IMG/VR virus record: IMGVR_UViG_3300021962_000628
Location: 1 to 24,503 of that record
DNA from: a virus
Direction: 5' to 3' (one strand)
Length of the DNA stretch: 24,503 nt
Shown: positions 3,452 to 24,503 of the stretch, in pieces
Layout of the letters: each line of letters opens with the position of its first letter
Position numbering within the stretch: the stretch's first letter is position 1
Notes under the pieces: model-generated
Databases searched by the model: none
Told to the model about the DNA's origin: nothing
What the model saw: only the letters and a program-made list of their open reading frames with translations
Program-made: the position numbers and the translations under genes

Positions 3452-4833
3452 TGGAAAGGGTTGAAACTACTATTCTCAGGAGTCTCGCATTTAATGAAGA
3501 ATATTCCAGAAAGGTTCTGCCTTTTATCCGAACCGAATACTTTACAGACTATAGTGAGAGAGTAGTTTTTGAGGAGATCTGTAAGTTTATCTTCAATTAT
3601 AACAAACTTCCTACACAGGAGATTCTCCGTGTGGAAGTGGATACTCGTACAGATCTGAATGAGAACTCTTACAAAGAAGTAACTGAATATGTTGCTCAAC
3701 TAGATGATTCTCGTCTAGATACTCAATGGTTGATTGATACCACTGAAAAGTGGTGTCGTGATAAAGCCATTTACCTTGCATTGATGGAGTCCATCTCTAT
3801 CGTTGATGGTAAAGACTCTAAGAAGACTAAGGATGCGATTCCATCTATTCTTTCGGATGCACTCGCAGTTAGTTTTGATAGTAATGTAGGACACGATTAC
3901 CTCCATGACTACGAAGAACGATTCAACTTCTACCATCAGGTTGAGGACAAAATTCCTTTTGACTTGGAATTCTTCAACAAGGTTACAAAGGGCGGACTTC
4001 CTAATAAAACTCTCAACATTGCTCTTGCAGGCACTGGTGTTGGTAAGTCTCTATTCATGTGTCATGTTGCTGCTGCTTGCTTACTCCAAGGTAAGAATGT
4101 TTTGTACATTACGATGGAGATGGCTGAAGAAAGAATTGCGGAACGCATTGACGCAAATCTTCTGAATGTAAATATCCAAGAGATTCAAAATCTTCCTAAA
4201 CAGATGTTTGAGTCCAAGGTTACTAAACTTGCTGCAAAAACCCAAGGAACTCTTATAATTAAAGAGTATCCCACTGCGAGTGCTCATAGTGGACACTTTA
4301 AGTCACTTCTTAATGAACTTGCACTTAAGAAGTCATTTAAGCCTGATATTATTTTCATTGATTATCTTAATATATGTGCTTCCTCTCGGTATCGCGGAAA
4401 CCTTTCTGTCAATTCATATTCTTATATTAAAGCGATTGCAGAAGAACTTCGGGGGTTGGCTGTTGAGTCCAATGTCCCTATCGTATCAGCCACCCAGACT
4501 ACTCGATCTGGTTATGGTAGCTCTGATGTTGACCTCACTGATACTAGTGAATCCTTTGGTCTTCCTGCTACTGCTGATCTTATGTTTGCCCTTATTTCTA
4601 CAGAAGAACTTGAAGGACTTGGACAAATTATGGTAAAACAACTGAAGAATCGTTATAATGATCCTACAGTAAACAAGAGGTTTGTTCTTGGGATTGATCG
4701 TGCAAAGATGCGTTTGTATGATTGCGAACAATCTGCTCAGGGTGACATCCTTGACAGTGGACAGGATGAGGAGTATACTTATGAAGAAAAGAAAACCGGC
4801 CCTAAAAAATCATTTGAAGGATTTAAATTCTAG
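3451..4833 (+). CDS. 41: Replicative DNA helicase gp41 (DnaB/T4 family)
   Basis: Hexameric 5'-3' replicative helicase of 460 residues that unwinds the fork and works with primase gp61. Walker A is GTGVGKS at residues 194-200, with VLYITMEMAEERIAERID following as in gp41/DnaB. Walker B is IIFIDYLN with D304. An N-terminal helical domain fills residues 1-150. The start ATG 3451 overlaps the oxygenase stop; an in-frame ATG at 3436 lies inside the oxygenase gene. The C-terminal tail is acidic/basic and ends KKSFEGFKF. The last 63 bases (4771-4833) recur at 6668-6724 before mazG, and a sigma70-like promoter (4751-4779) is encoded inside the tail. The gene is complete. Confidence 0.96.
   Translation: MERVETTILRSLAFNEEYSRKVLPFIRTEYFTDYSERVVFEEICKFIFNYNKLPTQEILRVEVDTRTDLNENSYKEVTEYVAQLDDSRLDTQWLIDTTEKWCRDKAIYLALMESISIVDGKDSKKTKDAIPSILSDALAVSFDSNVGHDYLHDYEERFNFYHQVEDKIPFDLEFFNKVTKGGLPNKTLNIALAGTGVGKSLFMCHVAAACLLQGKNVLYITMEMAEERIAERIDANLLNVNIQEIQNLPKQMFESKVTKLAAKTQGTLIIKEYPTASAHSGHFKSLLNELALKKSFKPDIIFIDYLNICASSRYRGNLSVNSYSYIKAIAEELRGLAVESNVPIVSATQTTRSGYGSSDVDLTDTSESFGLPATADLMFALISTEELEGLGQIMVKQLKNRYNDPTVNKRFVLGIDRAKMRLYDCEQSAQGDILDSGQDEEYTYEEKKTGPKKSFEGFKF
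4751..4779 (+). promoter_or_regulatory. Sigma70-like promoter inside the 3' end of gene 41
   Basis: TTGACA at 4751-4756, a 17-base spacer, then TATACT at 4774-4779 preceded by GAG. This is close to the bacterial sigma70 consensus at ideal spacing. It lies in the coding sequence of the gp41 C-terminal tail and would start transcription near 4786, giving the radical SAM gene (ATG 4843) its own early-type promoter. A similar element precedes mazG (6648-6676) and gp61 (17322-17350). Confidence 0.68.
4771..4833 (+). repeat. Direct repeat, copy 1: gene 41 3' tail
   Basis: Copy 1 of a direct repeat whose copy 2 is 6668-6724. Aligned in codons, 50 of 57 bases agree, and copy 1 has two extra codons (ACC GGC). 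Of five coding differences, four are synonymous and one is Glu/Asp; the stop codons differ (TAG against TGA). Both copies include the -10 hexamer TATACT and the SFEGFKF codons. Confidence 0.9.
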
Positions 4834-4842
4834 AGTTTGGTT

Positions 4843-6651
4843 ATGAAAAATATTTACATGTTTCAACCTCAATATTCTGTTGAAGTTAGAAATGAGGATA
4901 ACTATTGGTTGCCATATAGTGTGGGGTGTTTATGGTCTTATTGTTCTCAATTTGAAGACATTACTCAAAACTTCAGGTTAGAAGATTTGATCTTTAGAAG
5001 AGAAAATCCTAAAAATATACTTGATCGATTGAAAGATCCTGCAGTATGTGTGTTTAGTTGCTACGTATGGAATGAAAAATATAATTTACATGTTGCAAAA
5101 TTAATTAAAGAAAAATATCCAAATTGCATAATTGAATTTGGTGGACCTCAAGCAACAGAAAAACTTTTACAATATAATTTTATTGATTGTATAATTGTTT
5201 CCGAAGGTGAAATTAATTTTTTAAACTTTTTGAGATCAATAATTACTGGAAATGAAATAAAAAAGATATATGAAAAGGAGAGAATATATAATTTAGATTT
5301 TCCTAGTCCATATACAACTGGAGTTTTTGATAAAATAATTGAAAATAATCCTGATGTTCTTTGGTCTATGACTATAGAGACAAACAGGGGATGTCCACAT
5401 AAATGCACATTCTGCGATTGGGGAACTTTAACTTACACTAAAGTACGTCACTTTGACCTTAAAAGAGTTGAGGATGATATTGATTGGGCTACAAAAAATA
5501 ATGTTGCGTTTATTTTTAATGCCGATGCAAATTTCGGCATGTTTAAAGATAGAGATTTAGAAATTGCTAAATTGTTTAGAACTGCTGCTAATAAAAGTCA
5601 AAAATTAGAGGCAGTGAGCATACAATACTCTAAAAATTCTACTGAAGTTATTTTTGAAATAGCAAAAATTCTTGGTGATATAAGTCGTGGAGTAACTTTA
5701 AGTGTTCAAAGTATGAATGAACCAACACTTAAAGCAATTAAAAGAAAAAATATGAGTATCAATAAGATCTCTGAACAAATTGAAAAAAGTAAAAAATATG
5801 GTGTAAAAACTTATACTGAACTAATTCTTGGTCTCCCTGACGAAACTTTAGATAGTTGGAAAGATGGATTTTCCAAAATACTAGAATGTGGTCAGCATGA
5901 ATCAATTGATGTTTGGTTTTGCCAAATGTTTGGAGATACTGAATTGAATAGTATATCATCTAGAGAAATTTTTGGAATTAAAACTATTAAAGCTGAAAAT
6001 TTTCTTACTTTTAGTAATGATAAAGATTATGATGGTGTAAGTGAAATAGTGGAGTTAGTTTCTGAAACTAACACAATGACAAGTGATGAACTTGTTGAAG
6101 CTTATATGTATAGTTGGATGATAATACAATTTCATATTTCTGGATATTCTCAGTTAATTTCAAAATATTTTAATAATATTTTGAAAATATCTTATAGAGT
6201 ATTTTATGACAATCTATTTGAATATATTAAAAATAATTCTGGATCGTTAGGTAATCATTATAGAGATACTTACAACTTAGTAAACAATTATGTAAAGAAT
6301 GGAAAGATATCCAATAAAACAAAACACGGACACAATCTTCATTTACATTCTGGAAGTTCCGCTTTTCTTTTTAATAATAAGGAATATGTTTTTGAGGAAA
6401 TACAAAAATGTTCTGAAGTGTTGCATTCTATAGACATTAATATAATAGATATTCAAAAATCATTTATCTTTGATGAGAATAAAAATTATCCTTTTATAAT
6501 TCAGTCCAACTACAATTTAGATACTTGGGAATCGAAACCATATACTTATATTGTTGATACTAAATTTAAATCATACGATAAAAATAATCCTCATGAAAAT
6601 TTTGTTTTACGCCGTAAGGGAGTATTAAAAAATATTTTTAAAGTAACTTGA
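4843..6651 (+). CDS. B12-binding-type radical SAM protein
   Basis: Protein of 602 residues. The N-terminal ~160 residues look like a cobalamin-binding Rossmann domain of the radical SAM partner type: VFSCYVWN at 70-77, FGGPQAT near 99-105 and IIVSEGE at 117-123, but no DxHxxG motif. The radical SAM cluster ligands are C184, C188 and C191 (CPHKCTFCDWG). NADANFG and ELILGLPDETLDSW follow, as in this superfamily. It presumably reductively cleaves SAM for a methylation, cyclisation or rearrangement; the substrate is unknown. The start chosen is ATG 4843, with a TTG at 4837 as alternative. Base composition is much more AT-rich than its neighbours: 12 of 60 bases are G/C at 6421-6480 and 17 of 60 at 5101-5160, against 30 of 60 at 4021-4080 in gene 41. 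It sits between two copies of the gene 41 tail, which points to recent acquisition. Confidence 0.88.
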   Translation: MKNIYMFQPQYSVEVRNEDNYWLPYSVGCLWSYCSQFEDITQNFRLEDLIFRRENPKNILDRLKDPAVCVFSCYVWNEKYNLHVAKLIKEKYPNCIIEFGGPQATEKLLQYNFIDCIIVSEGEINFLNFLRSIITGNEIKKIYEKERIYNLDFPSPYTTGVFDKIIENNPDVLWSMTIETNRGCPHKCTFCDWGTLTYTKVRHFDLKRVEDDIDWATKNNVAFIFNADANFGMFKDRDLEIAKLFRTAANKSQKLEAVSIQYSKNSTEVIFEIAKILGDISRGVTLSVQSMNEPTLKAIKRKNMSINKISEQIEKSKKYGVKTYTELILGLPDETLDSWKDGFSKILECGQHESIDVWFCQMFGDTELNSISSREIFGIKTIKAENFLTFSNDKDYDGVSEIVELVSETNTMTSDELVEAYMYSWMIIQFHISGYSQLISKYFNNILKISYRVFYDNLFEYIKNNSGSLGNHYRDTYNLVNNYVKNGKISNKTKHGHNLHLHSGSSAFLFNNKEYVFEEIQKCSEVLHSIDINIIDIQKSFIFDENKNYPFIIQSNYNLDTWESKPYTYIVDTKFKSYDKNNPHENFVLRRKGVLKNIFKVT

Positions 6652-6676
6652 CTTTTCTTTTTATAAAGAGTATACT
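6648..6676 (+). promoter_or_regulatory. Sigma70-like promoter upstream of mazG, overlapping the radical SAM stop
   Basis: TTGACT at 6648-6653, a 17-base spacer, and TATACT at 6671-6676 preceded by GAG. The -35 spans the stop codon of the radical SAM gene (TGA 6649-6651), while the -10 lies in the leftover copy of the gene 41 tail. Transcription would start near 6683 and read mazG. Its geometry is identical to the promoter in the true gene 41 tail. Confidence 0.65.
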
Positions 6677-6724
6677 TACGAAGACAAGAAACCTAAAAAG
6701 TCGTTTGAAGGATTTAAATTTTGA
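6665..6724 (+). pseudogene. Vestigial gene 41 C-terminal tail (repeat copy 2)
   Basis: In frame from 6665 the bases read KEYTYEDKKPKKSFEGFKF then TGA, nearly the same as the real gp41 ending (EEYTYEEKKTGPKKSFEGFKF). Nothing upstream can translate it as part of gp41, because the radical SAM stop and a T-rich spacer precede it. Its TGA overlaps the mazG ATG (TGATG, 6722-6726), the same kind of junction seen elsewhere in this cluster. It therefore looks like the original 41/mazG junction left behind after the radical SAM gene was inserted. It still carries the mazG promoter -10 and a GAAGGA ribosome-binding region at 6707-6712. Confidence 0.85.
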
Positions 6725-7146
6725 TGACTGAAACTATGACTAAATCTGTTGATTTTAAAAAATATACTCAATTCGTTGATGCAGTAACTTCCGAAGCATC
6801 TACTGATTTTCTTGCACTTTCCGATCGACTTGTTCAACTGGATGAGAAAGGTGCAAATATTGAGCGTCTTCTAACCGCTGGTGTGGGTATCAATGCAGAA
6901 GGTGGTGAGTTCCTTGAGATCATTAAGAAAATGATCTTCCAAGGTAAACCATGGAATGCTGATAATAAAGAACATCTTCTAATCGAACTCGGTGACATTA
7001 TGTGGTATGTTGCACAAGCTTGCATGGCACTTGAAGTTACTATTGATGAAGTAGTTGCTCGTAATGTGACTAAACTTGAGAAGCGTTATCCTGGTGGTTC
7101 TTTTGATGTTTACTATTCCGAAAATCGGGCGGAAGGTGATCTGTGA
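6724..7146 (+). CDS. mazG: MazG-like nucleotide pyrophosphohydrolase
   Basis: Protein of 140 residues with the metal-binding arrangement of MazG-type all-alpha NTP pyrophosphohydrolases: E59-x-x-E62 (and E65) in INAEGGEFLE, and E88-x-x-D91 in IELGDIMWYVAQ. The family hydrolyses (d)NTPs to monophosphates; in cyanophages it has been discussed in relation to (p)ppGpp or to recycling of host nucleotides. The ATG at 6724 overlaps the TGA of the vestigial gene 41 tail; the upstream TTG at 6721 is not needed. The probable Shine-Dalgarno GAAGGA at 6707-6712 is provided by that vestige. The GTG of the next gene overlaps the stop. Confidence 0.9.
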   Translation: MTETMTKSVDFKKYTQFVDAVTSEASTDFLALSDRLVQLDEKGANIERLLTAGVGINAEGGEFLEIIKKMIFQGKPWNADNKEHLLIELGDIMWYVAQACMALEVTIDEVVARNVTKLEKRYPGGSFDVYYSENRAEGDL

Positions 7147-9775: not shown

Positions 9776-12700
9776 ATGGCTAGTTGGGAAGAATTTTCGC
9801 GTATTGTTGCAGAAGCTAAAGCATCTAAAAAATTAGATCCAGTCGGTCAGGAAGATGACGATGTGGATAATGATGGTGATTCGGATTCTTCAGATAGTTA
9901 TTTGAAGAAGAGGAGAGCTACTGTAGGTGCTGCAATTGCTGCAGACAAAAAGAAGAAAGTTTCAGAAGCACTAGATCCAGTAGGGCAGGAAGATAAAGAT
10001 ATTGACAACGACGGAGACCACGATAAGTCTGATAAGTATCTTTTAAATCGTAGAAAAGTTAGAGCCAAAGTCATTCCCCCTCAGGAAAGACTAAAAACGG
10101 ATCGTAATATGTTCAATATTCCTAAGTCTGAACAGGAAGCTGCTCGTGAGAGAACTCTTGCGAAGGCAAAGGCAAAGAGAATGAAAGAGGAAGTAGAACA
10201 GATTGACGAGATTGCTCCACTTGCGGTTGGCGCTTTAGCAGCAGGCGCTCTTGCTGCCCCAGCTCTTGCAAAAAAATTCTTAAAACCAGCAGCAGATAAA
10301 GCACTTGATAATGCATCAAAAAATCCAAATCGCCGTCTTGTGACTGGTGGAACCGTTGGAGATCTCAACAAGGCTAGAGGTATTTCTAATTCTTACCAAC
10401 CAGAAGGTGAAATGGTTGAAGAAGATAAAGAGTATCGTCGTGAGATGAGAAAGGCTGCTGCAAGAGAAAGAGCGGAAGAGAAGTCTGGTAGAAAAGAAGA
10501 AGGTAAGAGATCTGCAAAAGCTCCAGGAAGACTCGGTAAGTCTGCAGGAACTTCCTATGCAGATAAAGAACAACTTTCTATTAAAGGTCATGATGAAGTA
10601 ACCAAGAAAGCAAAACATACTGTCGGAAACCCATTCCCAGAACATGTTGAACTAACTTATGAGGCGAAAAAGTCTGATTATCTCAATGACAAACTTCCAA
10701 GTGATGAAAAACTTGGATATGGATTTAGTGATAATAAGAAGAGAGTCAAGGATCTCAAGAAACTAAAGAGATTGGTAAAACATTATGATGGTATGAAGAA
10801 AGGTGATCCAATGTATAATTCATACCAACCAGAAGGTGAACAACTTGAAGAAAAGGCTCTAAGTAGAGCACAACAGAGATTTATGGGTATGGTTTATGCT
10901 GCCAAGAAGGGAGAGACTCCTGCATCTCCTGAGGTTGCAAAGGCTGCATCTGGTATGTCTAAGAAGGCTGCAAGAGATTTTGCAAAGACCAAACACGAAG
11001 GACTTCCTGAGAAAAAGGAAGAAACTAAGGAAGAACTTTCTTTAGTTGATAAAATCATTGAGGAAGTTCTCAACGAAGCACCAAAGGGAACTATTTCTGG
11101 AGGAAAGAGCAAAGCAAAAAAGTACAAAGCAGTTGCTAAACAAGCTAAGTTGGCAGCTGCTGTCAACCAAGTAATGAAAGGTGAATCCGAACCAGAGTCG
11201 GAACCAGCTCCAAAAAAATCTGAAGAAGAAAGAAAAGAAACTGCAAAAAAACAAGTAAAAAGGGGTAAGTCAGATCCATCTGCTCTGACTCGTCGCGCTG
11301 CGGTTGCTGGTGCTGCTAAATTGAAAGCTGAAAAAGAAAAGACCAAGAGACAACGTGAGAGACAAAAGTATGAAACTCAGAAAAGAAAAGAAAAGAGTCA
11401 AGAAAAAAGAGCTGAAAAGGCTAAAGAATCAAAAGAGAGACAACAGAAATTAGAAGCCTCTATGAAAGAAAAGAGGATAAAATCTGCCCAATCCGAAAGT
11501 GATAGAGAAGAAGCGAGAAAAGAAAAAACAAAGGGAGAAGTGAAAGGAGCTATTAAAAGTGCTATTAAAGGTATAAAAACTGGACCGGTAGTTAGTGATA
11601 AAGCGAAAGGAAGTACTGGAGCTACTATAGATTCTGCTATCGAAACTGCAACTAGTGTTGGTAGTGCAGTTGGAAAAGCTGCAAGAGGAATTATTTCCGC
11701 AAAAATGAAAGAAAGGAAAAGAAAGAAACAGGAAGAAAAAAGAGTTGAAAGACATGAAAAAATTAGACAAGAAATGAGTAAAGAGGATTTTTCTAATTGG
11801 AGAGAAGAGTTTATCTTTGAGGTAGACGATCAATCCATCAAAGAACCACAACAAAAGGTTATTGATGTCTCTAAAAAGAAAAACAAAATTGAGATCAATC
11901 CAAACATGAGTGAAGGTTGTGGATGTGATGAAAAAGAAAAGGAAGAAACTCCTAAAAAGGATATGAGAGATTTCTCAACTAAAGTTAATCTTCTCAAAAC
12001 AAAAGCCAGAGTAATGGGAGCTAAAAATCCTATAGTGATGGTTGCTTCCGAAGAAACTGATAATATTCAGGAGATCGCTCCACTTGTAGGAATTCTTGCA
12101 AGAGTTGCTGGTGGTGCTGCCACAAGAGGTATCGCCGCTAGAGGTGCTGGTTTTGCAGCTAGAGGTGCTTTGGAAAGGAAAGCAGTTGATATCGCCGCAC
12201 AAAAGGGTGGTGAGATGACTGCTGATATGGTTCAGAAAAGACTTGAGAAGAAGTTTAAAAATGAGGATGAAGAACTTGAAGAAGGCATGACTATGGATGA
12301 CTTCAAAAAACAAAGAAGGCGTCAAAAGGAAGAACCACCAATTAGAAAGCGTGGTGGAATAAGTGCTCCAGAAGATGAACGCAGTATTGGTGGTGAAGCA
12401 AATAGAAAAAATAAAGATTACTGGGCAAGTGTTGTAGGTAAAAATAGAGATAGAGGTGCTGGAAACAAAGCAAAAAGAAGAGCATCAGAACTCAATAAAG
12501 AGGAGTTTGAAATTGAAGAGGGAATGACCCTCAAAGACTTCAAGAAGAAGCGTAGTGCTCAGAAGCAAAAGGAAAAGCGTGCTGCTGAGAAAACTTCTCC
12601 TCTCCGCAGAGCAGGCATCCATGATGATAAGGCATCTCCAGAAAGAGATGCAAGACATCGTGCGAATGTAGACCCCGATTTTGATGGGGATGATTCAGTA

Positions 12701-20707: not shown

Positions 20708-21853
20708 ATGGTAGAAGGAATGACCGTATTCAACACCAGTACAGATGTTGATACCCGCAAACAACCAATGTTTTTTGGTCAACCACTAGGTTTGCAGCGT
20801 TATGATCACTACAAGTACCCAGTATTTGATAAACTGACTCAACAACAACTCGGATACTTCTGGAGGCCTGAAGAGGTATCCCTCCAGAAGGATCGTAGTG
20901 ATTATCAACTACTTCGTCCAGAACAAAAACATATTTTTACTTCCAACTTGAAGTATCAGATCATGCTTGACTCCGTTCAAGGTCGTGGCCCTGGTATGGC
21001 ATTCATCCCTTACTGTTCTCTTCCTGAACTGGAAGCGTGCATGGAGGTTTGGGGATTTATGGAGATGATTCATAGTCGTTCTTATACATACATTATTAAG
21101 AATGTTTATCCTGATGCTGCAGAAGTCTTTGACCATATTCTAGATGATGAGAAGATTGTGAGTCGTGCAACCTCTGTTACTGAGGCATACAACGACTTTA
21201 TTAATGCTGCACAACAATATGGGACTTCTAATGAGTGGATTCATGCACAAGAAGGTGCGGGATATTCCAAAGATAATCGTAAGGAACTCAAACGTAAACT
21301 CTATCGTGCTGTTGCAAATGTCAATATTCTTGAAGGTATCAGGTTCTATGTCTCGTTCGCTTGCAGCTTTGCGTTTGGTGAACTCAAGCTTATGGAAGGA
21401 TCCGCTAAAATTATCTCTCTCATCGCAAGAGACGAAAATCAGCACCTTGTCATTACTCAAAACATCCTCAATAAGTGGCGCGAAGGAGATGATCCAGAGA
21501 TGCAAGAAATTGCTCAAGAAGAAGAATCTTGGGTAACGGAGTGCTTCCGCAATTGTGTGAATGAGGAAAAAGAATGGGCTAAGTACCTGTTCAGAGATGG
21601 ATCCATGATTGGACTAAATGACAAACTTCTCAATAACTATGTTGAGTGGATTGCAAATCGTCGTATGAAGGCGATTGGGTTGAAACCACTTTATGATGTT
21701 CCCGCAAAGAACAATCCATTGCCTTGGACTGAACACTGGATCTCTTCTAAGGGTCTTCAGGTAGCCCCACAAGAAACAGAAGTAGAATCTTATGTTGTTG
21801 GTGGTATCAAACAGGACGTAAAGAAAGATACGTTTGCTGGATTCAAACTCTGA
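20708..21853 (+). CDS. nrdB: Ribonucleotide reductase class Ia, beta subunit
   Basis: Small subunit of 381 residues carrying the diferric-tyrosyl radical. Iron ligands by comparison with E. coli NrdB: D88, E119, H122 (MEMIHSRSY), E209 (LEGIRF), and E243 and H246 (RDENQH). The radical Tyr is Y126 in HSRSYTY. The start is fixed by AAAGGAG at 20695-20701, six bases before ATG 20708; an in-frame ATG at 20636 lies inside nrdA. The C-terminal peptide, ending DTFAGFKL, should dock onto NrdA. Its last residues resemble the gp41 ending SFEGFKF. A late promoter follows directly after the stop. Confidence 0.97.
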   Translation: MVEGMTVFNTSTDVDTRKQPMFFGQPLGLQRYDHYKYPVFDKLTQQQLGYFWRPEEVSLQKDRSDYQLLRPEQKHIFTSNLKYQIMLDSVQGRGPGMAFIPYCSLPELEACMEVWGFMEMIHSRSYTYIIKNVYPDAAEVFDHILDDEKIVSRATSVTEAYNDFINAAQQYGTSNEWIHAQEGAGYSKDNRKELKRKLYRAVANVNILEGIRFYVSFACSFAFGELKLMEGSAKIISLIARDENQHLVITQNILNKWREGDDPEMQEIAQEEESWVTECFRNCVNEEKEWAKYLFRDGSMIGLNDKLLNNYVEWIANRRMKAIGLKPLYDVPAKNNPLPWTEHWISSKGLQVAPQETEVESYVVGGIKQDVKKDTFAGFKL

Positions 21854-22488: not shown

Positions 22489-23133
22489 ATGGCAAGGCAG
22501 GGGATTAGTACAGGAACATCGCCTAATGATGGTTTAGGCGACTCTCTGTTAGCTGGTGCTGTAAAAATTAATCAAAATTTTCTGGAAATTTATAATACTT
22601 TTGGAAACGGAAATACATTAACGAGTTATGTTAATACTGCTGGTATAGCAACTTATGCAACCACATCTGGTGTTGCAACTATATCTGGATATGCAACAAC
22701 AGCGGGTGTTGCAACTTATTCATCATCATCTGGAGTTTCGACAACAGTAAGTGGAGGATTTGGTTCACTTATAGGATTAACAGTTGTTGGACTTACCACA
22801 TTATCAGTCAATAGTTCTATTGATGCATTAAGAATTACTCAAACTGGTGGCGGAAATGCCCTAGTTGTTGAAGATGAAACAAATCCTGATGCTACTCCCG
22901 TTATAGTAACTGGTATTGGATCTGTTGGCATAGGAACAAATTCTCCAGTATGTTTATTTCATGTCCAAGGTGATACATTAATAACTGGAATTGCCACAGT
23001 TGGACTTGCAAATACTTCTACTCCAGTAAATAATTCTCAAATGAGTTTTGAACTCACATCAGACACAAATTTGAGAATTAAAGTTCGCGGAACTGATGGT
23101 GTGTTGAGATCTGCAGACATTACACTTGCATAA
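22489..23133 (+). CDS. Tail-fibre-like structural protein, 214 aa
   Basis: The N-terminal ~40 residues (GISTGTSPNDGLGDSL, KINQNFLEIYNTFG) are the attachment-type module found on many cyanophage fibre and virion proteins. Residues ~50-86 are a short Ala/Thr/Ser/Gly repeat (TAGIATYATTSGVATISGYA, then TAGVATYSSSSGVST). The C-terminal part contains VGIGTNSPVCLFHVQGD and LITGIATVG, a beta-strand pattern seen in trimeric fibre shafts. It is much shorter than a full receptor-binding fibre, so it may be a small fibre, a collar/whisker or decoration protein. It has its own late promoter. Confidence 0.8.
   Translation: MARQGISTGTSPNDGLGDSLLAGAVKINQNFLEIYNTFGNGNTLTSYVNTAGIATYATTSGVATISGYATTAGVATYSSSSGVSTTVSGGFGSLIGLTVVGLTTLSVNSSIDALRITQTGGGNALVVEDETNPDATPVIVTGIGSVGIGTNSPVCLFHVQGDTLITGIATVGLANTSTPVNNSQMSFELTSDTNLRIKVRGTDGVLRSADITLA
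22637..22746 (+). repeat. Imperfect tandem repeat in the fibre-like gene
   Basis: Repeats of a unit encoding T-(T/A)-(A/S)-G-(V/I)-A-T-(Y/I), with DNA such as GGTGTTGCAACT recurring at 22671-22682 and 22706-22717. Low-complexity repeats of this sort commonly expand and contract in fibre genes. Confidence 0.6.
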
Positions 23134-23135
23134 TA

Positions 23136-23143
23136 CTAAATAC
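23136..23143 (+). promoter_or_regulatory. Late promoter element CTAAATAC
   Basis: CTAAATAC three bases after the stop of the fibre-like gene, 32 bases ahead of the ATG at 23168. Confidence 0.6.
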
Positions 23144-23167
23144 CTCAGTGTCGCAAAAAGAATATCT

Positions 23168-23839
23168 ATGACTTTAGATCTTCATAACTTCTTCAAGTAT
23201 TATGATGATAATAACGCGAATCATGTAGCTGCAGTTCAATGGTTAGAGGATAACCTTCCTGCACAATTCATGGATGATTCTGAATCCGAATGGATTGGAA
23301 TTTTTAGAACAAAACCCCCTACTCCAGAAGTTCTCGCAGTCCCTTACTACAATCAAGTAGACAACTATAGAGATGCACATAGAACTTGCAACTCTTCATC
23401 GTGTGCTATGTGTCTGTCTTTCCTCAAGCCAGGCAGCATCAAGGGCGATGATGAGTATGTCAAGAAAGTATTTGAGATTGGTGATACGACTGACCATGCC
23501 GTACAGACGAAAGTTCTGGCAGCTTATGGTGTTAAGTCACACTTTAGTTACAATCTATCTTTTGCTGATATTGATAAAAGTCTGGACGCTGGGAAGCCCG
23601 TTGTTATTGGCATACTCCATAGGGGTTCTCTTTCTGCACCTACTGGTGGGCACATGTGTGTTGTTATAGGAAAGACCCCAGATGGAAAGGGTTACTATAT
23701 CAACGATCCATATGGTTCTCTAAACGATAACTATACCGGTCCAGTAACAAATGGTAAGAAAACCATTTACACCAAAGCAGTTCTTAAGCATCGTTGGTGC
23801 CCAGGTGGCAACGATGGTTGGGGTAGAATTTTTGACTGA
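23168..23839 (+). CDS. C39-like cysteine peptidase with shared N-terminal module
   Basis: Protein of 223 residues. Residues 1-47 (LDLHNFFKYYD, AVQWLEDNLP, IGIFR) form a module also found at the N terminus of the adjacent lysozyme. Residues ~55-200 match a papain-like C39-type peptidase: Q63 in VPYYNQVDN for the oxyanion hole, candidate nucleophile C74 in RTCNSSSCAM (C79 is an alternative), H162 in TGGHMCVVIG and D180 in YYINDPYG. It may cut peptides, possibly murein cross-links, given its neighbour. The start chosen is ATG 23168; an in-frame TTG at 23126 lies in the previous gene. No signal peptide is seen. A late promoter is present at 23136. Confidence 0.85.
   Translation: MTLDLHNFFKYYDDNNANHVAAVQWLEDNLPAQFMDDSESEWIGIFRTKPPTPEVLAVPYYNQVDNYRDAHRTCNSSSCAMCLSFLKPGSIKGDDEYVKKVFEIGDTTDHAVQTKVLAAYGVKSHFSYNLSFADIDKSLDAGKPVVIGILHRGSLSAPTGGHMCVVIGKTPDGKGYYINDPYGSLNDNYTGPVTNGKKTIYTKAVLKHRWCPGGNDGWGRIFD
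23174..23308 (+). repeat. Shared N-terminal module, copy 1 (in peptidase gene)
   Basis: Encodes residues 3-47 of the C39-like peptidase. By eye about 28 of 43 aligned residues equal those in the lysozyme copy at 23860-23991, and DNA runs such as GCAGTTCAATGGTTAGA are identical in both. Confidence 0.85.
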
Positions 23840-23850
23840 GGAGAACAACA

Positions 23851-24503
23851 ATGGCTAGAATAGATTTACACAACTTTTTCAAGTTTTACGACGAAAGAAA
23901 TCCTAACCATGTCAAGGCAGTTCAATGGTTAGAAGATAATCTCCCCGTCAAGTTCTTAGAGGATAACATTGACTGGGCTGAGATTTATAGAGGAAAAAAG
24001 ACTAGTGCTGCACCAGCCTCAGCCGCTGCTGCAGCTCCTGTAACAAGTGGTGATGATATGCCTATGATGGGTCTCAAACTTATCAAAGAGTTTGAAGGAT
24101 GTCATCTATCTGCATATCCTGATCCCTTGACTGGTGGACTTCCAATTACTATTGGTTGGGGTTCCACTCGCAAGAAGGATGGATCGCCATTCAAACTGGG
24201 TGATACTATCACTCAACAGGAGGCAGACGATCTACTCATCAGTCAGTGTAAGAGTCAGTTCTTACCTGCACTTCGCAAGATTCCTCATTGGAATGAGATG
24301 ACTGATGGTAAAAGAGGAGCACTCCTCTCATTTGCTTATAATCTAGGTGCTGGTTTCTATGGTGGAGATAATTTCAATACCATTACAAAGCGTCTGAAGA
24401 ATAAGGAGTGGGACTTGGTTCCTGATGCTCTTTATCTCTATCGTAACCCTGGTTCAAATGTAGAAGCAGGTCTTGCTCGCCGCCGTAAGGCAGAAGGCGA
24501 AGC
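23851..24503 (+). CDS. GH24 lysozyme/endolysin with shared N-terminal module (3'-truncated by window edge)
   Basis: The ORF is open to the window end, with 217 codons visible. Residues 4-47 repeat the peptidase N-terminal module (IDLHNFFKFYDE, AVQWLEDNLP). Residues 51-67 are an Ala-rich linker. From ~70 the sequence matches phage T4/P22-type lysozyme (glycoside hydrolase 24): catalytic E82 in IKEFEGCHLSAY, D91 in PDPLTGG and T100 in ITIGWGST, the E-D-T arrangement of the family, followed by ALLSFAYNLGAG and LYLYRNPGS. It should cleave the glycan strands of peptidoglycan. GAGGAG at 23838-23843 lies seven bases before the ATG, and the gap after the peptidase is 11 bases, so the two are made together. 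Confidence 0.92.
   Translation, partial: MARIDLHNFFKFYDERNPNHVKAVQWLEDNLPVKFLEDNIDWAEIYRGKKTSAAPASAAAAAPVTSGDDMPMMGLKLIKEFEGCHLSAYPDPLTGGLPITIGWGSTRKKDGSPFKLGDTITQQEADDLLISQCKSQFLPALRKIPHWNEMTDGKRGALLSFAYNLGAGFYGGDNFNTITKRLKNKEWDLVPDALYLYRNPGSNVEAGLARRRKAEGE
23860..23991 (+). repeat. Shared N-terminal module, copy 2 (in lysozyme gene)
   Basis: Encodes residues 4-47 of the lysozyme and parallels 23174-23308 in the peptidase gene. Codon differences are spread along the copy, so the duplication is not very recent. Confidence 0.85.

Follow-up and report, generated by a model that had tools for sequence, protein, structure and literature searches.

We analysed a 24,503 nucleotide (nt) stretch of viral DNA, positions 1 to 24,503 of the IMG/VR record IMGVR_UViG_3300021962_000628 (hereafter the window). 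A gene for a radical S-adenosylmethionine (SAM) protein lies between gene 41, which encodes the replicative helicase gp41, and mazG. The 3′ end of gene 41 occurs twice, once in place (copy 1) and once stranded directly ahead of mazG (copy 2). Copy 2 is probably the promoter and leader of mazG, retained from a gene 41 3′ end that once abutted mazG. In T4-like cyanophages the final ~83 nt of gene 41 would have a double reading: they encode the C-terminus of the helicase and would also supply mazG with a host-sigma70-type promoter and a Shine-Dalgarno sequence, and any cargo inserted between the two genes would remove the expression signals of mazG.

The doubled gene 41 end

A preliminary description of the window had reported copies of 57–63 bases of the gene 41 tail on either side of the radical SAM gene. 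The pair was confirmed at 4771–4833 and 6668–6724, with a single intact gene (4843–6651) in between. The best match of copy 2 elsewhere in the window scored 40.5, versus at most 24.5 among 200 single-base shuffles. Compared codon by codon, the copies show five substitutions, one in-frame gap of 6 nt and different stop codons. Four substitutions are synonymous (TAT/TAC, AAA/AAG, TCA/TCG and TTC/TTT) and only GAA/GAC is not, which agrees with the earlier count, and the TGA of copy 2 (6722–6724) does overlap the mazG ATG (6724–6726) as had been noted.

The repeat proved longer than first described, with a −35 box at 6648 ahead of copy 2 as then delimited. Both copies contain the element TTGAC(A/T)-17 nt-TATACT (with TTGACA at 4751–4779 and TTGACT at 6648–6676), each with GAAGGA downstream. 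The radical SAM gene ends on a TGA (6649–6651) that falls within the TTGACT of copy 2. The profile alignment of window copy 2 begins just ahead of the −10 box (column 42), and its −35 box was identified by sequence and spacing. The radical SAM gene has a GC content of 27.3%, versus 39.0% in gene 41 and in mazG. Table 1 lists the features.

Table 1 Features of the gene 41/mazG junction in the window
Feature	Position	Strand	Basis or content
Gene 41 (DnaB-like replicative helicase), 460 aa	3451–4833	+	Pfam DnaB_C 2.2e-18; PHROG 19 9.8e-134
Copy 1, gene 41 3′ end	4751–4833	+	Comparative promoter score, synonymous constraint
Copy 1 −35 box	4751–4756	+	TTGACA
Copy 1 −10 box	4774–4779	+	TATACT
Copy 1 Shine-Dalgarno-like sequence	4816–4821	+	GAAGGA
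Inserted TokK/KedN5-like radical SAM gene, 602 aa	4843–6651	+	CPHKCTFC motif; GC 27.3%
−35 box ahead of the stranded copy	6648–6653	+	TTGACT; contains the stop codon of the radical SAM gene
Copy 2, stranded gene 41 3′ tail, putative mazG promoter and leader	6648–6724	+	nhmmer E 1.8e-12 and 5.5e-12; 42-nt core exact in 77 contigs
Copy 2 −10 box	6671–6676	+	TATACT
Copy 2 Shine-Dalgarno-like sequence	6707–6712	+	GAAGGA
mazG (MazG-like pyrophosphatase), 140 aa	6724–7146	+	Pfam MazG 1.2e-8; PHROG 229 2.5e-56

A putative promoter and ribosome-binding site within coding sequence

The final ~83 nt of gene 41 appear to hold a sigma70-like promoter (TTGAC(A/T)-17-TATAAT/ACT) and the Shine-Dalgarno sequence of mazG. 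Across relatives, whose promoter and codon counts are phylogenetically non-independent, the best match with 17-nt spacing reached at least 10/12 in 151/154 tails of uninterrupted 41/mazG junctions versus 22/1270 windows from the gene 41 body. Among inserts of >100 nt (n = 80), the upstream tail promoter was kept in 51/64 without a strong promoter just before mazG, versus 6/16 with one (Fisher p 0.0018).

Synonymous codon use was biased at the same positions. Within the hexamers, Leu was CTT in 77/80 representatives (42% in the gene body), Asp was GAC in 75/80 (25%) and Tyr was TAT in 80/80 (67%), and at the ribosome-binding site (RBS) Gly was GGA in 73/82 versus 30% in the gene body. These biases show selection on the DNA of the gene 41 end beyond its coding function. 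The preliminary description had overlooked the promoter and RBS, and their location in the tail would explain why the tail persists.

The two tails belong to different lineages

Exact matches to the 42-nt core of copy 2 were found in 77 contigs, 48 of them distinct in the sequence surrounding it. Every match is gene 41 end sequence; in 76 it is gene 41's own end and in one it is another stranded tail. The gp41 of this core-bearing clade is 74.9–78.9% identical to that of the window (58 full-length matches). Loci with gp41 88–94% identical to the window's supplied both the best matches to copy 1 (the tails of L174, L172 and L091) and the top two matches to the gene 41 body (L172 and L170). Since the core is exact in so many contigs of another clade, the tails did diverge in different phages, and the earlier proposal that they did so as working gene 41 ends is supported. 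The companion proposal, that the radical SAM gene arrived with a foreign gp41 tail, is not supported: copy 1 matches the window's own gene 41 group, and the odd piece is copy 2. As a whole, the preliminary description is partly supported.

The same architecture with other cargoes

We ran a profile of the gene 41 end over the inserts from 270 distinct junctions, 259 of them with mazG. Among these 259, 162 were uninterrupted, 14 had 31–100 nt and 83 had >100 nt between the two genes. The resulting counts should not be read as frequencies in a population: a tail match was the reason for fetching several of the loci, the counts are among the matches listed, and two of the sets keep the 80 best out of at least 598. 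The junctions were deduplicated on 360 nt only, and near-identical rows persist (e.g. L344 and L397). One apparent duplicate, L180, with two gene 41 parts, was dropped because its gene 41 is interrupted by intein-like halves, which lowered the count of inserts from 83 to 82.

Stranded tails were recognised at E < 1e-3 in 7/82 inserts, namely the window, L302, L347, L427, L376, L366 and L332. Matches at L099 (E 0.36) and L420 (E 0.31) were too weak and were left uncounted. The other cargoes were 2-oxoglutarate (2OG)-Fe(II) oxygenases at L302 and L332 (by Pfam) and at L427 (translation judged by eye), a GIY-YIG protein at L347, an FkbM-type methyltransferase at L376, and at L366 a gene with a weak DUF6445 match below the cut-off. 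The preliminary description had held that two tails in relatives lacking the radical SAM gene would speak against its account, and these six loci have exactly that, so we take the phenomenon to belong to the site and not to the cargo.

In the six events outside the window, the profile match starts 1–6 nt ahead of TTGAC, and all seven events have a 17-nt spacer and hexamer pair scores of 10–11. The cargo stop is the TGA within TTGACT in the window, L376 and L332. Because TTGAC occurs near the stop in 0/56 radical SAM relatives, the ending of the radical SAM gene on TTGACT is local to this junction. The clear cases of a stranded end matching close empty-site relatives, with the inserted end diverged, were L347 against L384 and L302 against L285, and in the window copy 1 goes with the gene 41 body. 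L302 and the empty site L285 are 99.87% identical over 779 nt from ACTTGACT on and 86% ahead of the insert.

The junction is also variable in phage records. Among 12 fetched records (L003–L014), 10 had inserts of >100 nt, and no stranded tail was seen in the 12. These inserts were annotated as 2OG oxygenases, a DNA-binding stress protein, fructose-bisphosphate aldolase, a 'redox protein' and hypotheticals, and one was unannotated.

A GIY-YIG endonuclease at the junction

L347, whose GIY-YIG ORF spans 11271–11990, could be aligned with an empty site, L384. The two differ at 24 of 2927 positions upstream and at 116 of the final 571 in gene 41, densely from 10824 on. After the endonuclease gene there are 0 differences in 903 nt, with identity resuming ~83 nt before the gene 41 stop of L384. 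This is the pattern of a co-converted foreign gene 41 end with a stranded resident tail, and L302/L285 has the same right-hand break. In L347, then, incoming DNA has stranded a resident tail, as the preliminary description had envisaged.

Endonuclease loci at least 76% identical (L476–L491, L476 being the same contig as L347) had the gene directly after gene 41 in 16/16 cases, 12 of them distinct by a 500-nt key. All 14 with a complete 3′ end run on into ACTTGAC. Copy 1 had a promoter score of at most 9 in 16/16 carriers, and the stranded copy scored at least 10 in 14/14. In 12/16 carriers the same DILD peptide is spelled GATATTTTAGAT, where residents typically have GATATACTTGAC. L476 and L477 are identical in the endonuclease (637/637) and in copy 1 (88/88), yet only 77% identical in mazG, which indicates that the replacement tail and the endonuclease move together. 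A Mantel test of copy 1 with the endonuclease versus copy 2 with mazG gave no separation, all parts being correlated (r 0.66–0.83). Among 50,697 phage records, no match to the endonuclease was found at ≥60% identity.

L487 and L488 have lost the stranded tail apart from the hexamers at 17-nt spacing. The endonuclease loci thus form a decay series in which window copy 2 would be intermediate. At L094 and L128, and in the inserts of L188, L207 and L241, a TTGAC(A/T)-17-TATAAT-like promoter precedes mazG and no tail of gene 41 can be recognised, which may be the end state of this decay.

The joints nearly coincide. The right end of the radical SAM insert (GTA/ACTTGACT, the slash marking the joint) lies within a few nt of the endonuclease joint (AARAT/ACTTGAC or AAAAA/ACTTGAC). 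Together these comparisons suggest that a candidate homing endonuclease, with predicted cleavage here, uses the gene 41/mazG site in relatives of the window.

Gene 41 is also interrupted internally in three loci. In L180, inspection by eye places a GIY-YIG-like gene between two intein-like halves; in L482 the break is near codon 190; and in L489, which has a second GIY-YIG-like match, it is near codon 355. Given these interruptions within the gene, several mobile elements appear to hit gene 41.

The radical SAM cargo

The nearest solved relative of the radical SAM protein by sequence was TokK (3.3e-73 over residues 21–484), with further matches to the KedN5 model (1.1e-49; 169 bits versus a cut-off of 700) and to CysS (1.1e-38). 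TokK, KedN5 and CysS are radical SAM methyltransferases that depend on B12. The CxxxCxxC cluster motif is present as CPHKCTFC, and PF04055 scored 54.2 bits (cut-off 29.5). The N-terminal B12-binding domain PF02310 reached 19.9 bits, under its cut-off of 32.1, and the TokK alignment spans this region. The cargo is a predicted TokK-like, methyltransferase-like radical SAM protein.

Among 75 radical SAM relatives fetched from viral contigs, 49 loci had at least two such genes, mostly as tandem neighbours. Neither gene 41 nor mazG was found beside any of the 75, within flanks of up to 4 kb, many of them shorter. One 107-kb contig, L038, contains both a radical SAM pair and a gp41 75% identical to the window's, ~25 kb apart.

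Two observations concern other parts of the window. The end of nrdB (21820–21853), ...TFAGFKL, resembles the gp41 end, ...SFEGFKF, and the promoter scan had no strong match there. Two 104-nt stretches (23175–23278 and 23861–23964), 686 nt apart, are 72% identical; the first sits inside an open reading frame (ORF; 23126–23839) that may have a second, diverged copy.

How the junction may have been built

In the account that we favour, nonallelic recombination would have joined a piece carrying gene 41 and the radical SAM gene to a gene 41 tail of another lineage ahead of mazG, approximately at the −35 box. In this arrangement gp41 stays whole through copy 1, the radical SAM gene lies downstream of the putative copy 1 promoter, and mazG retains copy 2. 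Freed from protein constraint, copy 2 has an altered spacer but maintains the −35 box, the 17-nt spacing, the −10 box and the RBS. In the endonuclease relatives, homing would import a replacement gene 41 3′ end and strand the resident tail. In the window, where the insert is joined only a few nt away from the position used by the endonuclease, a double-strand break at the site would be the likeliest driver as well; the arrangement may also stem from recombination with a genome that had previously undergone this conversion. By inference, homing moved the radical SAM gene too.

In a broader version, homing would have turned the gene 41/mazG junction into a landing site. A GIY-YIG endonuclease would target unusually conserved DNA, at once promoter and coding sequence, and carry a replacement gene 41 tail that no longer matches it at the DNA level, the resident tail would be stranded as the mazG promoter, and breaks would deliver radical SAM genes, 2OG-Fe(II) oxygenases and the FkbM methyltransferase in trans. 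We offer this version tentatively, as plausible but leaning towards doubtful.

Several observations weigh against the favoured account or parts of it. We go no further than calling it probable because copy 2 and mazG agree on a relative or group in only 3/7 events (L302, L347 and L366); in the window, L427, L376 and L332 they disagree on the closest relative, which also speaks against a simple two-piece origin. The window mazG is closest to copy 1's group (best 85.1%, versus 80.7% in the best copy-2 match), and the resident side therefore cannot be assigned in the window. The TATACT −10 box and the TGATG joint of copy 2 likewise resemble copy 1's group, and on these three counts copy 2 may itself be mosaic. 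The corresponding 26-nt pattern (an A-like −10 joined to a B-like leader) occurred in 0 other viral contigs, in a search from which records near the window were perhaps excluded. No near-identical empty site was found for the window (best gene 41 body 88.7%, best mazG 85.1%), and no clear conversion contrast was seen in L366/L123 and L332/L333, two of the four events compared with an empty site. The window junction has no visible endonuclease gene or remnant, its cargo being the radical SAM gene, and copy 1 retains its promoter there, unlike in the endonuclease carriers. The window leader is unchanged though the spacer has changed, which the favoured account does not explain, and 75/82 inserts have no recognisable stranded tail.

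The promoter itself also meets objections. Promoter-like matches numbered 23 in the region versus 15.0 (standard deviation 3.4) in shuffles, only a modest excess, and 5 on the whole + strand of the window versus 0–4 in shuffles. By this measure the element in a single window could be chance; the comparison across relatives says otherwise. The codon counts come from 80 of 122 representatives (<85% identical), the 42 without the LD-Y motif having been left uncounted, and the Glu codon beside the RBS Gly was not significantly biased (45/60, p 0.06). At 21 nt, the Shine-Dalgarno sequence of copy 1 is too distant from the start of the radical SAM gene to serve it.

The most serious competitor is recombination from promoter to promoter, in which the trailing −35 box and spacer of the cargo module itself were joined at the −10 box to a gene 41-derived leader, cassette-like and with no endonuclease. 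The late start of the profile match in the window would fit it, as would the spacers of the window, L332 and L366, which are unlike gene 41's or AT-rich, and the tail-less mazG promoters of L207, L188 and L241. In L302, L347 and L427, however, the spacer is gene 41's own, which places the joint at or above the −35 box; the 3′ half of the window spacer (ATAAAGAG) resembles gene 41's ATGAGGAG; and the absence of TTGAC near the stop of radical SAM relatives does not suggest a module with a −35 box of its own. We consider this route rather unlikely, though it deserves to be kept in view. It is improbable that insertion of the radical SAM gene duplicated the gene 41 tail in tandem on the spot and that the noncoding copy then drifted. 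Such events apparently do happen, because the near-identical copies flanking the L366 cargo are the same over the 44 nt after the −10 box, a point that also tells against the favoured account there. In the window, copy 2 matches L112 of the other clade at 54/58 positions versus 49/59 for copy 1, and four of the five substitutions are synonymous; on the 77-contig core match we reject duplication as the main explanation for the window.

That copy 2 is a passive, functionless scar would agree with its not being translated as gp41 and with a 1-nt deletion in copy 2 of L427. A scar would hardly keep its −35 box, −10 box and 17-nt spacing in 7/7 events and 14/14 endonuclease loci, the tail-less L487 and L488 included, and we judge this very improbable. 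Least credible of all is a chimera made in metagenome assembly, with a gene 41 tail common to two phages as the false bridge. All seven events are on IMG/VR contigs, conserved tails are a plausible place for a false join, and the 12 fetched phage records had no stranded tail, but a stranded tail beside a cargo must pre-exist any chimera, and the architecture recurs over different data sets, cargoes and 12 distinct endonuclease loci.

Relation to known systems

The closest parallel is in fungal mitochondria, where mobile endonuclease ORFs (mORFs) come with a foreign C-terminus, as described for atp6 of Allomyces macrogynus and atp6, atp9, cox2 and nad3 of Glomus sp. (PMC3630166). In the cases described there, the ORF lies near the 3′ end of a gene and supplies an in-frame replacement C-terminus, the native one is stranded downstream, and the native tail matches close relatives while the inserted tail is diverged; L347 fits on each point. 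The window shares with this kind its two 3′ ends, one in frame and one stranded. Unlike in the mORFs described, the stranded tail of the phages bears the putative promoter and RBS of the next gene, and the phage joint also bears cargo other than an endonuclease, such as the radical SAM gene.

Among phages, the free-standing GIY-YIG endonucleases SegA–SegG of T4 carry out intronless homing with co-conversion of flanks (PMC2988022). According to the same source they too lie between phage genes, and downstream promoters can lie inside them, as gene 32 promoters do within segG. The Seg enzymes it describes cut at a distance of hundreds to thousands of bp from their own genes, whereas here the insert splits the end of its target gene and strands a tail. 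Promoter/stem-loop (PeSL) cassettes shuffle genes in T4-like phages (Arbiol 2010 and Comeau 2014, as cited in PMC4503421), a likeness in that early promoters serve as points of gene exchange. Unlike PeSL cassettes as cited there, the putative promoter in the window is embedded in a coding end, with no terminator-like hairpin found between the radical SAM gene and the promoter (fold z −0.86).

Early genes of cyanophages are thought to be transcribed by unmodified host sigma70 polymerase (PMC2984593). A putative early promoter is mentioned for mazG of S-PM2, in a passage that gives neither its location nor its conservation (PMC2297514), and the promoter tally in PMC3037559 was restricted to promoters located between genes or no more than 10 bp from the end of an ORF. 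In a literature search mostly without subscription papers, we recognised no paper describing the combination found at the 41/mazG junction. The kind of event is known, from C-terminus replacement by mORFs and intronless homing in T4; what we did not recognise in the literature is the retained promoter-bearing tail together with cargo other than an endonuclease.

The architecture offers a testable route by which auxiliary genes may enter the conserved replication cluster of cyanophages with both neighbours intact, the helicase end remaining whole and mazG keeping its promoter. It would account for the retention of a noncoding gene fragment and would place a regulatory element in a coding end, where searches confined to intergenic DNA miss it. 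It would also tie the conservation of a promoter to the target of a homing endonuclease.

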